A stretch of 39,651 nt of DNA from a virus, in the IMG/VR virus record IMGVR_UViG_3300044815_000087, positions 1 to 39,651 of that record; one strand, written 5' to 3'. The translations under genes and the position numbers were made by a program. This document shows, one piece after another, positions 2,372 to 14,913 of the stretch. Below the pieces are notes generated by a model. That model had not been told where the DNA came from. It saw only the letters and a list, made by a program, of their open reading frames with translations, and ran no database searches. Within the stretch, counting starts at the first letter, position 1; each line of letters starts with the position of its first letter.

Positions 2372-2402
2372 GCTACTTGGCATATCGGCCCTTGACATCC
2401 GG
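2372..2402 (-). repeat. Orphan copy of the 3' end of the 2922-4508 gene
   Basis: These 31 bases align without gaps to 2921-2951, with 25 of 31 identical. Read on the minus strand, both encode P-D-V-K-G-R-[F/Y]-A-K-stop. Four codon differences are synonymous (Gly, Arg, Ala, Lys) and one is Phe to Tyr. The copy begins directly after the stop codon of the HNH gene. The parsimonious reading is that this is the original gene end, displaced when the HNH unit inserted, and that 2921-2951 is the replacement end delivered with the insertion. Confidence 0.85.
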
Positions 2403-2903
2403 CTAGGCGTAGCGAGCGATGATCTCCTGCGCCCACGCAAGCTTGTCCTCCACTCTCTGTCCGGGCGGGTGCGATCTGGACCACAGTTCGAGATTCCCGA
2501 TACGGTTGTCGTTGCGAACCCCGTTGCGATGGTGGACGATCTCATCCGGAAAGAGGGGTCGCCCAAGGCACTCTTCCATGCGAAGGCGGTGCTGCGGGTA
2601 CCAGTCGTCCCCGCGCTTCTCGTCAACGTAGCTTCCATGGGGGCGTGTAGCGCCCTCCGGTAGCTTGATGGAGGATGGGCCGATGGGTCTGTCGAGCGGT
2701 TCGCCCGCGTGATGACGCTTGAGGTGTGTAGCGCAGTAGCCCAGGGCGCAATGCTTTCGGCCGCATCCCTCAACCTCGCACCACTCTCGCGTCTTGAATC
2801 GGGGCTTGTACAGGTCCGTGCCGCGAATACGGCGAGCGTTGTGCATGACGCACATTTTGTGTGCGTACCGCGGGCTGTTGCAGCCCTCCACGATGCATAG
2901 CAT
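2403..2903 (-). CDS. HNH homing endonuclease inserted near a gene end
   Basis: 166 residues. Two N-terminal zinc-finger-like modules (C3-C8-C18-H21 and C42-C47-C52-C57-H60 regions) precede an HNH_3-type nuclease core. The core has H124-H125-x-N127 followed by NDNRIGNLELW (131-141) and a histidine at 145. Such free-standing HNH enzymes cut a specific DNA site and spread by gene conversion. The frame is preceded by a TATGAT box six bases before the ATG at 2903, and AAAGG could serve as a weak ribosome site. It sits between two structural genes in the same orientation and is flanked by duplicated target-gene ends. It is related to the enzymes at 13068-13631 and 14150-14644. Confidence 0.9.
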   Translation of the reverse strand: MLCIVEGCNSPRYAHKMCVMHNARRIRGTDLYKPRFKTREWCEVEGCGRKHCALGYCATHLKRHHAGEPLDRPIGPSSIKLPEGATRPHGSYVDEKRGDDWYPQHRLRMEECLGRPLFPDEIVHHRNGVRNDNRIGNLELWSRSHPPGQRVEDKLAWAQEIIARYA

Positions 2904-2921
2904 GCCTTTATCATAGCAACG

Positions 2922-4508
2922 CTATTTAGCGAATCTTCCCTTGACATCCGGAGATCGCGTTGCCCGGAACCCGTGCTCAAGGCGATGCAGGGCCCACGTC
3001 ACGTTCAGCGCCGAGTTCTGCACATGCAGCGAGAGGACGTGCCCGGACACGGATTGCGAGATCAGCCACGGCGCGGTCGTGCCCGTCGGGCCCCAGGTGT
3101 CGGGCCCCAGGCCCACGCCCCACAGGTCAGCGGGATTCGTACCGTCGCCCCACAAGTCGACAGCGGATCCGAATGTTGCGGTGTCAAATCGTCCGGGCAG
3201 AAGCTCGAAATCCCGGCTGATCGCGAACGCGGCGGCGCCCTCGCCCCACAGCTTGGTTTGACGGACACTCTTTTGGTCCTGTGAGCCGTAGTCCACCCAG
3301 CCCTGCCGCCACCTTGAGCTGATCGCCGTTCCCCCCGTGCCGGAAGTGGTCAGGTCGTCCGCCGCGTAGCCGGAGCCCTCGTAGTAGCGGCCGACATGTT
3401 TCAAACCGGTGGCGTAGGCGTACACCATCTCTTCGCGCGTACCGGTGCGAAACGAGCACATCGCAGCCGCAGGGGTGTCAAACAGCGTCCACCAGCCTTG
3501 CCGTGGCGAGTAGACGGCGAGACGATTGTTCGCGGTCGCCGTGGAGAACGCGAAGTAGAGCCTGCCCTGTGACCACCACAGCCGGGCGCTCGACAGGAGG
3601 GACGTGTCGATGACGCCGCCCGTGTAGTACAGGCTCGCCCCGCCAAGGAACAAGGGATCCAGGGCTCCGGAGACAAGTTTTGGCTCTCCGCCCGTGGTCA
3701 GCCACACGCCGCGCCGATCCATGAAGTACACGCCCTCCGGTGACGCGCACGCTGCACCAACGCTACCGGCAGCCCCCGCGACCGGCCGATAGTTGAACAC
3801 TGGGGTGCCGGTGCTCGCGGTGCTCGTGCCGTAGAAGACAAAGAACTCGGTTTCCTTGAACGCGAACACGTACTCGCGCCATGCCACCAGGGCGGTTATG
3901 GCCTCGCCGGAGCCGGGGTGCAGGTCAACGTAGTTATTGGCCCCGAACGTTGTGGGCACCCCGGGGTCACTGAACAGGACACGGTCGGGATTCGCGATCG
4001 TCCTTGCGGCCACCAGCCGGTTGTCGACAGCTTGCACGGCGAGGTATTTGGCGGTCGGCGTCGTCCCCGTGAAGGCTGGCGTGGAGAACGCCGCTCCATT
4101 CCACAATCGGACGGTGTCGGTGCCATTCGCGATGTACATGTGCTCGTTGCCGGGCGCCCCGAAGCGCGTGAAATAGTGCGGGCTCGCGGTCGTCGCGACG
4201 TTCGCCGTGGACGTGCCCGAAGTGTTCAAGGCGTCAAGGCGAACACCGTTGCCAGCGATCAGGACCCGTGCGCCCGCGGCCGTGTAGTACGCCGCAAGGC
4301 TGTCCACGCGGTTTGTGAGTTCGGCGCTCGTGAAGCGCTGCGTGCCGTCCCGCTGGCGCATCCCTCCCTGCGGGAGGAACAAGACGTTCATCAGGTCGCA
4401 TGCCTGGTCGACGCCGACCACATCCGCGCCGTCCGTGAGATTCAAGCCACCGGAGAACCGGGATTGGCCGACCGGGGTGTAGCCGCGCCCCAATTCGCGG
4501 GACGCCAC
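2922..4508 (-). CDS. Beta-propeller-like tail/structural protein (nozzle-like)
   Basis: 528 residues. The N-terminus has the arrangement GGLNL...DLMNVLF...GGMRQRDGT typical of large beta-propeller structural proteins of short-tailed and related phages. It is followed by many short beta repeats with WNG, VFAFKE, FFVFYG, VYFMDRRG and LYFAFS segments, consistent with propeller blades. It follows the head-tail adaptor gene, as the nozzle or hub proteins of podoviruses usually do. The GTG start at 4508 overlaps the upstream TAG. The C-terminus (PDVKGRFAK) is the recoded copy linked to the neighbouring HNH gene. The assignment to a tail nozzle is inference; the family resemblance is moderate. Confidence 0.7.
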   Translation of the reverse strand: MASRELGRGYTPVGQSRFSGGLNLTDGADVVGVDQACDLMNVLFLPQGGMRQRDGTQRFTSAELTNRVDSLAAYYTAAGARVLIAGNGVRLDALNTSGTSTANVATTASPHYFTRFGAPGNEHMYIANGTDTVRLWNGAAFSTPAFTGTTPTAKYLAVQAVDNRLVAARTIANPDRVLFSDPGVPTTFGANNYVDLHPGSGEAITALVAWREYVFAFKETEFFVFYGTSTASTGTPVFNYRPVAGAAGSVGAACASPEGVYFMDRRGVWLTTGGEPKLVSGALDPLFLGGASLYYTGGVIDTSLLSSARLWWSQGRLYFAFSTATANNRLAVYSPRQGWWTLFDTPAAAMCSFRTGTREEMVYAYATGLKHVGRYYEGSGYAADDLTTSGTGGTAISSRWRQGWVDYGSQDQKSVRQTKLWGEGAAAFAISRDFELLPGRFDTATFGSAVDLWGDGTNPADLWGVGLGPDTWGPTGTTAPWLISQSVSGHVLSLHVQNSALNVTWALHRLEHGFRATRSPDVKGRFAK

Positions 4509-11846: not shown

Positions 11847-13055
11847 TCAGAGATTGGACGTGACGCCTTGTGCGTCGGGTTGCTTGACGCCGACAGCATG
11901 ACGTACGCGCTGGACTGCCCCGCCATTCCCACCGCCACCACCGGCCTGCGAATAGCCCAGCACCTGCGCCGAATCGGTCTCCGTGGCCGGTGTCAGCGTG
12001 ATGTTGCGAACCAGCGTGAGGAACGTCGCCGAGTCCGTCTCCGTGGCTGGCGTGATGGTGTAGAACGTCGCGAACGTCAATCCCAGCGCCTGCGCCTGGT
12101 CCACTTCCGTCGCGGCCGTTATGGCAACGGACTTGTAGTAGCTGAGCGGTTGTGCGCCATCCACCTCGACGGCGGGCGTCAGCGTTGTGTTCTTCGCGAA
12201 CGCGAGGGCCTGGGCACCATCGGTTTCCGTCGCTGGCGTGATCGTGGCTGCGCGGTAGAACGACAAGCCCTGAGCACTATCCGTCTCGGTAGCTGGCGCG
12301 ACGGACGCGTTCTTGCCGAACAGCAGCGCTTGGCCTGCATCCGTCTCCGTCGCGGGCGTCACCGTCGCGAACTTCTGCAAGCTCAACGCCTGCGCCGCAT
12401 CCGTCTCGGTAGCGGGCGTCAACGTGACCGATGTCGCCCCAGCGGGCTTCAGCGTGAAAGTGTGCGCATACCAGTCGTCAGCAGCATTCGCGACATCCCA
12501 CGCCGCCGGATCCTCCGATCCCGACGCGGACAGGAGCTTTGTGGCGACAGCGTTGTCATTGCCGTTGGTGTTGTCTGAGCGCAGCACGTACCCGGCCGGT
12601 GCAGTCCAACCCCCGGTAGACCCGCCCCAGTGAAACAGGACGGTAACTGCCATTGCCGCCGAGCTGACCGCGACGACAGCAGGCCCGTTGCCCGTGTTCG
12701 TCGTGCCCGTCGCCGGGGTTGCCTGTGCATCAATCGGTGCAGCACCGTCGCCACCAGAGAACGCGAAGACCTGATGCTCAACGTAGCGACTGGTACCCGT
12801 CCACGGAAACGAGTAGGACGGCGCCGACCCGCCCCGGACGATGTACGCGATGATGTAGCGGAAGTCAACCTGCGTGCCGGACTTCAGGATCGTCCAGCCC
12901 GCCGCGGCCGTCCAGCCCGTCGAGCTGAGCACGTCGACCAGGCCGACGAAGACGAGGATGTCACCGGACGCCGCTCCGGCAGGCTCGCTCCCTACGGCCG
13001 GGGACGAGGCAATCGTGTGGACGGCGGTTCCGGCGGACCGGAACGCAATGGCCAT
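11847..13055 (-). CDS. Surface protein with eight TPATETD repeats
   Basis: 402 residues. The N-terminal 205 residues look like a beta-sandwich (ILVFVGLVD, GWTILKSGT, HTFTLKPAG). Residues 209-370 hold eight repeats of about 20 residues with the consensus TPATETD-x-AQ-x-L. A Gly-rich linker and a basic tail complete the protein. The TETD repeats probably form a beta-stalk or adhesive fibre. The ATG at 13055 overlaps the TGA of an orphan R-A-S-stop end (13055-13066) left by an HNH insertion. Before that insertion it was therefore coupled directly to the 13644-14078 gene. The function is inferred as virion surface. Confidence 0.75.
   Translation of the reverse strand: MAIAFRSAGTAVHTIASSPAVGSEPAGAASGDILVFVGLVDVLSSTGWTAAAGWTILKSGTQVDFRYIIAYIVRGGSAPSYSFPWTGTSRYVEHQVFAFSGGDGAAPIDAQATPATGTTNTGNGPAVVAVSSAAMAVTVLFHWGGSTGGWTAPAGYVLRSDNTNGNDNAVATKLLSASGSEDPAAWDVANAADDWYAHTFTLKPAGATSVTLTPATETDAAQALSLQKFATVTPATETDAGQALLFGKNASVAPATETDSAQGLSFYRAATITPATETDGAQALAFAKNTTLTPAVEVDGAQPLSYYKSVAITAATEVDQAQALGLTFATFYTITPATETDSATFLTLVRNITLTPATETDSAQVLGYSQAGGGGGNGGAVQRVRHAVGVKQPDAQGVTSNL
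11946..12431 (-). repeat. Array of eight imperfect TPATETD-coding repeats
   Basis: Eight tandem units of 60 or slightly more bases encode the repeat T-P-A-T-E-T-D-x-A-Q-x-L with varying spacer residues. Codons for the core vary between units (for example alternate Thr and Glu codons). The array is therefore old or under selection for protein sequence rather than a recent slippage product. Confidence 0.85.
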
Positions 13056-13066
13056 CAGCTAGCCCG
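13055..13066 (-). repeat. Orphan R-A-S-stop end of the 13644-14078 gene
   Basis: On the minus strand the 12 bases read CGG GCT AGC TGA (Arg-Ala-Ser-stop). They begin one base after the TAG of the HNH gene. The intact upstream gene ends in CGA GCG TCA TGA, the same three residues using different codons throughout. The TGA overlaps the ATG of 11847-13055, which is the normal coupling style here and supports this being the original gene junction. Confidence 0.7.
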
Positions 13067-13067
13067 G

Positions 13068-13631
13068 CTAGCGAAGCTTGTCAGGCGCGTAGCGGCGCAG
13101 GTACTCCACGGCTGCGTCGATCTTGTCCTGAACTCGTTGCCCGTTGGGGTGATGCGCTGCCCATAGCTCCAGATTTTCGAGCCGGTTGTCGGCTCGATCC
13201 CCGTTCTTGTGGTGCACGGACTCGTGTGGCTGGAGGATTCGCCCGATTGATTCTTCGATGCGCAAACGATGTTCCGCCACACGCTTGTGGGAGGCGAATG
13301 GATGATCCGGAGCCCATACCAAGACGTATCCATTGTGAGACAGGCGCCTGGGGATCGGCTCTCGACCACGCTTGCGAGTCGGGTCGCCGTGGCTACGCCA
13401 CCGCGTGTAATGCATGGAGCAGTAGCCATGTCCCTGGACCGTTCGGTCGCAGTCCTCAACTGTGCAGACTTGCCGATGCGACCTGCCCTCGTTCCGCCCC
13501 CACTTGCGAATCTCGGCTGGCCCGGCGTCGCCATGCTTCCGCCAGCGGGCGTAATGGGTCGGGCAGTAACCACGCCCGCCGTTCTTAGGTGATCGCGTGC
13601 AGGCTGCAACTGCACAAGCTCGTTCGGTCAT
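13068..13631 (-). CDS. HNH homing endonuclease with two zinc fingers
   Basis: 187 residues. Two N-terminal modules of the type C-x4-5-C-x-(10-12)-C-x2-H (residues about 6-27 and 56-74, each ending YC-x-x-HY-x-RW) are likely DNA-binding zinc fingers. The HNH_3 core follows, with H140-H141-K-N143, ADNRLENLELW (147-157) and H160/H161. The C-terminal helix ends EYLRRYA as in the 2403 enzyme. The start ATG at 13631 is preceded by CATGATAAAG, matching the sequence before the 2903 start. It separates two structural genes and carries a duplicated, recoded target-gene end. Confidence 0.9.
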   Translation of the reverse strand: MTERACAVAACTRSPKNGGRGYCPTHYARWRKHGDAGPAEIRKWGRNEGRSHRQVCTVEDCDRTVQGHGYCSMHYTRWRSHGDPTRKRGREPIPRRLSHNGYVLVWAPDHPFASHKRVAEHRLRIEESIGRILQPHESVHHKNGDRADNRLENLELWAAHHPNGQRVQDKIDAAVEYLRRYAPDKLR

Positions 13632-13643
13632 GCGGTGACTTTA

Positions 13644-14078
13644 TCATGACGCTCGGAAGAAATCCCCCGCATTTACCACTATTTGGTTGCCGTCCGTCAA
13701 GACCACGAAATCATGGGCGGTCAAGGGGATGATGTTCGCATCCGTGCCCCCCGTCGTGTCCGAGTCGTAGCCGATCACCAGCAGGGAGGCGTCATCTGCG
13801 GCGGCATCCGGGGTCCAGTTGAACGTGGGGATCGCGACCGCATACCGATTGTTCGTGTCATCCGGAGCAGGGAATGACGCAAGCTCCGTGTCCGTCAATG
13901 TCTTTCGGTTCCAGCCCGTCCCCGTGACCTCGTTTGTCGCGCCTGCCACCAGTGCCGTGAACGTATCCACGTCCTCCAGCGTGGATTGCGCCTCCAAGCC
14001 GGACGTGGCGAGCACCATCACGATCAGCGCTGACGTGGATGGATCGTTGTTCTCGACGCGGTTGTAGAACTCAGCCAC
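13644..14078 (-). CDS. Small virion structural protein
   Basis: 144 residues. The N-terminus is helical and resembles small head proteins (AEFYNRVENNDPSTSALIVMVL). The rest is beta-rich, with GYDSDTTGGTDANIIPLTAHDFVV. GTG start at 14078 with AAGGGA eight bases upstream. The last residues FFRAS are encoded by codons that differ from the orphan copy downstream of the HNH gene. It is probably a head or surface protein by position; the family is not recognised. Confidence 0.7.
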   Translation of the reverse strand: MAEFYNRVENNDPSTSALIVMVLATSGLEAQSTLEDVDTFTALVAGATNEVTGTGWNRKTLTDTELASFPAPDDTNNRYAVAIPTFNWTPDAAADDASLLVIGYDSDTTGGTDANIIPLTAHDFVVLTDGNQIVVNAGDFFRAS

Positions 14079-14149
14079 ACTAATCGTCCCTTCGCTATAT
14101 TAAACACATAGGTAGCCAAGGGAGTCCTCCTTCCAAGAGTGGGTGACCA

Positions 14150-14644
14150 GTGCCAGCACGAGTAGTCCTTTCAGATGCACAGCGGCAGGAAGTAGTCAGA
14201 CGCTACGCCAGCGACAACTGCTCGCGTCACGAACTTGCGGTTGCTTTCGACACGTACCCGATGGCAATAGACAGGATCCTTCGCGCCGCGGGCGTGGAGC
14301 TTCGCGACGCTCGAACGCGTCGCGGCCTCGCTTGCCCCGTGTACCGGGACGGTAGGCAACGCCACGGTGAGGGCTACGTGAGCATCCTGCTGCCCGACAA
14401 CAGCCCCTTCATCGACATGGCTCAGGGTCGTCGCCGGGTGCTCGAACACCGCCTCGTGATGGCGCAACATCTTGGGCGTTGCCTGCGACCCGCCGAGCGC
14501 GTCCATCATCGCAACGGCATCCGCAACGACAACCGCATCGAAAATCTGGAGCTTTGGGAGGAATCCCACCCGCCGGGCCAGCGGTCCCACGAGCGGCAGC
14601 ACTGCCCAACATGCTCCTGCCATCAGAACTCGGCGATCGTGTAG
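14150..14644 (+). CDS. HNH endonuclease with N-terminal HTH, antisense insertion
   Basis: 164 residues on the strand opposite to the operon. The N-terminal 50 residues look like a helix-turn-helix (SDNCSRHELAVAFDTYPMAIDRILRAAGVELR) in place of the zinc fingers of its relatives. A strand pair (GYVSILLPDN) leads to the HNH core with H119-H120-R-N122, NDNRIENLELW and HPPGQ, nearly identical to the 2403 enzyme. Its 3' end overlaps the end of the minus-strand gene 14623-14913 by 22 bases. It starts with GTG; no strong ribosome site was seen. It is probably a mobile endonuclease. Confidence 0.87.
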   Translation: MPARVVLSDAQRQEVVRRYASDNCSRHELAVAFDTYPMAIDRILRAAGVELRDARTRRGLACPVYRDGRQRHGEGYVSILLPDNSPFIDMAQGRRRVLEHRLVMAQHLGRCLRPAERVHHRNGIRNDNRIENLELWEESHPPGQRSHERQHCPTCSCHQNSAIV

Positions 14645-14913
14645 TTGGTAGCTGCCCCCGTCGCGATGCACGCTACCGCGCCATCCCACGCGTTGCTTGT
14701 CCACGACCCACCCGCCGCATTGATCCGGATGCCCTGTCCCACAACGGCTGTTGGTGCGATTCCGCCGGTGGTTGCGAGCTGCAAGTAGATGATCTGCGTC
14801 GCGTGATCGTTCACGACCGTGATCTCGCGTCGCCCGCTGTACTCGGTGGCCACGACCGCGGACCCGGTACCGGCGACGCCGGTTCCTGACTTGGCGGCGA
14901 CAAGGGCGCCCAT
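14623..14913 (-). CDS. Small virion structural protein
   Basis: 96 residues with regular beta strands (REITVVNDHATQIIYLQLATT, GQGIRINAAGGSW) and a Gly/Ala-rich N-terminus. It resembles small head-surface or decoration proteins with an immunoglobulin-like or jelly-roll fold. The ATG at 14913 overlaps the previous TGA (TGATG). Its 3' end runs antisense into the HNH gene. The specific role is unknown. Confidence 0.7.
   Translation of the reverse strand: MGALVAAKSGTGVAGTGSAVVATEYSGRREITVVNDHATQIIYLQLATTGGIAPTAVVGQGIRINAAGGSWTSNAWDGAVACIATGAATNYTIAEF

Follow-up and report, generated by a model that had tools for sequence, protein, structure and literature searches.

Why should the last residues of a viral protein be encoded twice, with different codons, on the two sides of an endonuclease gene? 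The question is raised by a locus in the virus record IMGVR_UViG_3300044815_000087 (IMG/VR), which we analyzed as a single window of 39,651 nucleotides. On the minus strand of this window, a gene for an HNH endonuclease (P0001) separates the gene for a P0003-family protein from P0004, the next gene of the operon. From sequence comparisons, the region 13055-13655 can probably be explained as an HNH homing cassette that carried a recoded 3′ end and inserted within the last codons of P0003. We hold with far greater confidence that a general phenomenon exists wherein HNH genes reside in the 3′ coding ends of other genes, accompanied by a respelled copy of the end that preserves the encoded protein.

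The P0003 gene ends with GAT TTC TTC CGA GCG TCA TGA, in exact agreement with the R-A-S-stop that an earlier note on this DNA had read, and 12 bases separate it from the HNH gene at 13068-13631. The HNH open reading frame (ORF) closes with AAG CTT CGC TAG (the stop codon at 13068-13070), and a single C at 13067 precedes the sequence CGG GCT AGC TGA. Direct reading confirms that this second copy stands one base past the HNH stop, that every sense codon is changed, and that its TGA overlaps the ATG of the next gene. The two R-A-S-stop copies differ in all three sense codons and are identical at 7 of 12 nucleotides. The positions of these elements, those of a second case in the same genome, and the target genes identified at other loci are collected in Table 1.

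Table 1. Elements of the two recoded-end sites in the window, and further target genes of HNH insertions with the residues that are repeated.
Feature	Position, contig or phage	Strand	Remarks
Target gene (P0003 family, phrog_26662, unknown function)	13644..14078	-	start GTG, end ..DFFRAS
Present, recoded end of target gene, CGA GCG TCA TGA (R-A-S-stop)	13644..13655	-	putatively imported with the HNH cassette
HNH endonuclease gene P0001, 187 aa	13068..13631	-	PF13392 HNH_3, E=1.9e-7; phrog_20891 HNH endonuclease, E=5e-23
Putative remnant of native target-gene end, CGG GCT AGC TGA (R-A-S-stop)	13055..13066	-	TGA overlaps next ATG
Next operon gene P0004	11847..13055	-	ATG 13053-13055; N-terminal relatives found, several with stop/ATG overlaps
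Sister case, present end of gene 2922-4508, PDVKGRFAK-stop	2922..2951	-	GC3 of last 10 codons 0.4
Sister case, HNH endonuclease gene P0002, 166 aa	2403..2903	-	PF13392 match
Sister case, putative native end PDVKGRYAK-stop	2373..2402	-	directly after HNH TAG, in HNH frame
Target: 740-aa phrog_11667 protein	many freshwater-type contigs		TIRSV, TIRTV, TIRTI
Target: major tail protein	L087/L088		GAVVRATS / GAVTRATS
Target: phrog_1392 protein	L105		YPRH / YPKH; short, may be partly chance
Target: primase/polymerase	phage Roman		WEAL / WEAV
Target	L198		INAG
Target	L177		EDDD; least certain, short, may be partly chance

The sister case (2373-4508) has the same arrangement with a longer repeat, in which the first 14 nucleotides of the two copies are identical and the remainder is recoded. 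As the earlier note had stated, the two HNH proteins are relatives of each other, with 38-45% identity, and their stop codons are indeed followed by TAG-C-CGG and TAG-CCGG. Both belong to the HNH_3 family, with scores against PF13392 of 31.0 bits for P0001 and 33.0 bits for P0002 relative to a curated cut-off of 24.8. The GC content at third codon positions (GC3) of P0003 is 0.81 before the last 10 codons and 0.5 within them (13647-13676), and the target gene of the sister case similarly drops from 0.82 to 0.4. These are the lowest values for last-10-codon GC3 among window genes with normal GC3, the others of which range from 0.6 to 1.0. Since they belong to exactly the two genes that precede a same-strand HNH gene, both ends look imported. 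For the sister site, a distant relative without the HNH gene (L041) was considered, but its end is too diverged to tell which copy is native. Both HNH genes follow one shared nonamer, ATGATAAAG (for the sister case, TATGATAAAG), at 13632-13650 and 2904-2921 on the minus strand, and it is possibly a shared ribosome site or a piece of a cassette promoter.

The earlier note had argued from these two cases that a mechanism is more likely than chance, and had suggested examining homologous HNH genes for repeats of the upstream C-terminus in the codons that follow each HNH stop. HNH relatives were therefore gathered from IMG/VR and from annotated phages, yielding 143 distinct loci, and the C-terminus of each upstream gene was compared with peptides that end at the HNH stop or shortly past it. 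A score of 20 or more, which we treat as strong, was reached at 15 of the 143 loci, versus a permutation mean of 0.19 (maximum of 2 in 200 permutations). About seven unrelated target genes are represented among the repeat-bearing loci, and between the copies the residues agree while the codons differ. The argument for a mechanism beyond chance is thereby supported, and the proposed check is positive in its outcome, with the amendment that the old end is mostly the C-terminal tail of the HNH protein itself rather than a stretch beyond its stop. An initial scan that covered only sequences past HNH stops found no case outside the window, and the cases located in HNH tails escaped it. The mirror-image test, in which the N-terminus of the following gene was examined for recoding at 90 loci, gave no excess over chance (best score 21).

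Which of the two copies is native can be judged most directly from phages that differ by the presence of the HNH gene. Such sporadic presence is observed for the Microbacterium phage Roman versus PhillyPhilly and Lupine, and for the L020 family versus contig L031. Around the site, the Microbacterium phages Roman and PhillyPhilly share 98% identity. The primase/polymerase gene of PhillyPhilly and Lupine, which lack the HNH gene, ends with GGA GGA GCA TGG GAG GCA GTA TGA GCAATTTC. Roman carries an insert of 452 nucleotides, and its primase/polymerase gene now ends with GGA GGG GCC TGG GAG GCC CTG TGA, whereas the last codons of its HNH gene, AAG GAT TGG GAG GCA GTA TGA GCAATTTC, match the native end in PhillyPhilly. 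The native end has thus become the tail of the HNH protein. Furthermore, the recoded end of Roman is changed at 5 of 21 positions although the flanking 30-nucleotide blocks match at 29-30 of 30, indicating that the recoded end came in with the HNH gene.

The second comparison, for the TIRTV family, leads to the same assignment. Contig L031 has no HNH gene at the site, and its end, ATT AGG ACG GTC TAATGCAGGCACAAGACTACG / TAATGCAGGCACAAG, is spelled like the HNH tails of its relatives and unlike their recoded ends, AT(A/T) AGA (ACC/AGC) GTC TGA. For most contig pairs of the L020 family, similarity is higher for the HNH DNA than for the host gene or the next gene (e.g. 0.905 versus 0.756 and 0.631), as expected of a mobile unit. 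Roman and the L020 family settle that the original is the copy located past the HNH end or within it, and that the recoded copy before the HNH gene arrived with it. Across contigs L020-L030, L035 and L187, the host gene and the HNH tail change their final residues in step (SV, TV or TI) despite the different spelling of the two copies.

These observations also bear on the possibility that insertion merely duplicated the target site in place, in which case the copies would have been identical at first and the upstream one would have drifted synonymously under selection for the protein. The final picture would be the same, and the 14-nucleotide identical block of the sister case and an 8-nucleotide block in Roman do resemble short direct repeats. 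However, five changes in the 21-nucleotide Roman patch are too many for drift after insertion when the flanks are 98-100% identical, and the GC3 of both recoded ends in the window is foreign to the genome. An unselected remnant should also be the first copy to lose its residues, yet the S, T and I residues covary between the copies of the L020 family. We therefore regard in-place duplication as a decidedly improbable origin.

For the locus at 13055-13655, the more serious concern is that the HNH gene simply lies between two genes and that C-CGG-GCT-AGC-TGA is a spacer that happens to read R-A-S-stop. By the estimates available, residues, stop and position would all agree exactly by chance with a probability of 0.01-0.1%. 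An R-A-S-stop occurs within 13 nucleotides of a random point on the same strand with a frequency of 0.1%. With cross-paired HNH loci, at least three identical terminal residues plus a stop within 15 nucleotides past the HNH stop were found at a frequency of 0.01%, or of 0.07% when the HNH gene's own stop was also allowed and the TIR(S/T)V family was excluded. The residues concerned are characteristic of the protein, as evident from the viral relatives of P0003, of which 12 of 14 end with RAS and a stop (the other two with TAS and RSS), and from most of the weaker relatives in bacterial genomes, which end with RAS or RAA. One HNH-free relative, L008, ends with TTC TTC CGG GCG AGC TGATGG, an arrangement that matches the one predicted for the junction before insertion. 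The TGATG overlap likewise suits a former gene end, through which P0004 would originally have been coupled to native P0003. These features, the anomalous GC3 of the present end and the precedent set by other members of the class make a chance resemblance fairly unlikely.

Several points weigh in favor of chance and against an imported end at this particular site. The repeat comprises only three residues, and in the laxer BLOSUM test the site scores just 13, a value that a few of the 143 loci reach by chance. The palindrome GCTAGC occurs twice around the P0001 stop (GCTAGC-CGG-GCTAGC), which slightly weakens the match, and the putative remnant is in a different frame from the HNH gene whereas most other cases are in the HNH frame. 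Because of the short match and the repeated palindrome, we do not treat the match alone as proof. In addition, the closest HNH-free relative of P0003 (L001, 79% amino acid identity) ends with CGC GCG TCG TGA, a GCG TCN spelling that agrees with the present end, and not with the remnant, in its Ala codon and in the class of its Ser codon, with the Arg codon and the exact Ser codon differing. This spelling fits an L001-like donor of the cassette, and it is also compatible with a native end that was never altered and a repeat that arose by chance. The earlier note had named an HNH-free relative with the codons of 13644-13655 as one observation that would refute its reading; among the relatives recovered, none has these codons, and L001, the closest without an HNH gene, shares the Ala codon and the Ser class only. 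Finally, no close HNH-free relative that joins the P0003 gene to the P0004 gene was found in phages, in viral contigs or in one scan of bacterial genomes, the last of which returned only relatives at 50% identity or less. Searches of phages and viral contigs likewise yielded no relative of the neighboring gene P0006. Given the L001 result and the lack of such a close relative, the case at 13055-13655 is best called probable, and the general mechanism well supported.

If the end of P0003 was indeed imported, the mobile unit would be a cassette composed of a differently spelled 3′ end of the target gene with its stop codon, followed by the HNH ORF. The HNH enzyme would nick or cut the native 3′ end in an uninvaded phage, and repair would then copy the cassette from an invaded donor. 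This nick-and-copy step is suggested by established homing biology, in which flanks are co-converted. Because the recoded and native ends share little homology, the recoded one would fall within the tract that is copied. After insertion, the body of P0003 would read into the imported end, leaving the protein unchanged, and the old end CGG GCT AGC TGA would stay behind the HNH gene, overlapping the start of the next gene. The expected ancestral junction without the HNH gene is TTC CGG GCT AGC TGATGGCC (..CGG GCT AGC TGATGG). Respelling may serve two roles, by making the imported end immune to its own enzyme and by removing a direct repeat through which recombination would delete the HNH gene. 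We lean, if only somewhat, toward the broader view that many free-standing HNH genes of phages are self-rescuing homing cassettes of this type, whose targets are essential genes, at the 3′ coding end, and whose recoded copy of that end maintains gene function, blocks self-cleavage and prevents loss via repeats.

A similar amino acid repeat has been interpreted differently in the past. In the ShiLan insertion found in actinophage DNA methylases, which contains a hidden HNH gene, the opening 11 residues of the insertion are similar to the 11 that follow the site of insertion, and the authors discuss this repeat as a possible sign of an intron (PMC11855218). ShiLan is a tblastn match of the Roman HNH protein, and its repeat is of the same kind as those described here. 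Unlike the present case, the ShiLan insertion is located mid-gene, the methylase frame runs through it without a stop and the HNH gene is out of frame; the authors do not propose a recoded end that rescues the gene (PMC11855218). For the loci studied here, a splicing element is very hard to reconcile with the data. Likeness at the protein level with differing codons is the opposite of a base-pairing signal, the insert (452 nucleotides in total for Roman) is taken up by the HNH ORF, so that a splicing RNA would not fit, and the upstream gene is closed by a stop codon before the HNH gene. Searches for Rfam introns gave no match at the gathering threshold in the window or in six loci, nor at E<=1 in 12900-14700. 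A group I intron or an intein with an HNH domain was also considered and is unlikely, given the lack of an RNA family match, the lack of space and the stop before the HNH gene.

The closest parallels come from fungal mitochondria, wherein mobile ORFs (mORFs) of Glomus atp6, atp9, cox2 and nad3 and of Allomyces atp6 carry foreign C-terminal duplications (PMC3630166). There too, an endonuclease gene sits in the 3′ part of a gene, a foreign and synonymously diverged C-terminus replaces the native one, and the native one is left behind the endonuclease gene. This layout, with the foreign C-terminus in frame and the native one downstream, is seen in Roman and in the L020 family; the arrangement at 13055-13655 would fit it, with a repeat of three residues. 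The fungal elements differ in that they encode LAGLIDADG or GIY-YIG enzymes, reside in mitochondrial DNA and usually replace longer stretches (PMC3630166), whereas the phage elements encode HNH_3 enzymes and replace 3-10 residues, with the native end often serving as the HNH tail and operon overlaps being kept. The mobA and mobE genes of T4-like phages are likewise intronless HNH genes that spread by cutting and copying with co-conversion of flanks, but the part of that account used here describes them between genes or splitting genes, and describes no recoded copy of a target end (PMC2988022). No phage report on recoded-end cassettes was found in a literature search whose reach mostly stopped short of subscription papers. 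The logic is thus known from fungal mitochondria, and the recoded-end HNH cassette of phages appears to be a new form of it.

Free-standing homing endonuclease genes are usually described as limited to intergenic sites, where they spare host genes (PMC13405050). By supplying a respelled end, the HNH genes considered here instead enter the coding ends of structural and replication genes, with about seven unrelated targets. If this is correct, they constitute a class of coding-end invasion beyond intergenic sites and a naturally occurring analog of ‘cleave and rescue’ gene drives. Insertion with a recoded end offers an explanation for the ShiLan repeat and for tight overlaps between HNH genes and their neighbors. 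Moreover, the proposed roles of recoding in immunity to self-cutting and in protection from deletion can thereby be tested directly in phages available in culture, such as Roman and PhillyPhilly.

A third HNH gene lies on the plus strand at 14150-14644, near the 5′ end of P0003, and ends within the last codons of an opposite-strand gene at 14623-14913 (overlap 14623-14644). L001 has no HNH gene at this position. All P0003 relatives checked start in frame with MA(N/D)..VFN.AKGR..E(F/Y/W) or a sequence near it. In the window, the minus-strand segment 14079-14119 reads TTG GCT ACC TAT GTG TTT AAT ATA GCG AAG GGA CGA (LATYVFNIAKGR), is GC3-poor and follows a strong ribosome site. Five extra bases, TTAGT, between the LATYVFNIAKGR codons and GTG GCT GAG TTC place this conserved N-terminus of P0003 out of frame. 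The disruption is perhaps a mirror-image case at a 5′ end, a frameshift mutation or an assembly error. Beyond the third HNH gene, the gene at 14623-14913 ends with TGATGGCA (M-A; 14618-14623, minus strand), which is possibly the old start of P0003. Elsewhere, in phages Comrade, CeilingFan, Bromden, Neville and GiJojo (L064, L065, L071, L056 and L057), the last 16-29 nucleotides of the HNH gene also form the start of the gene that follows.
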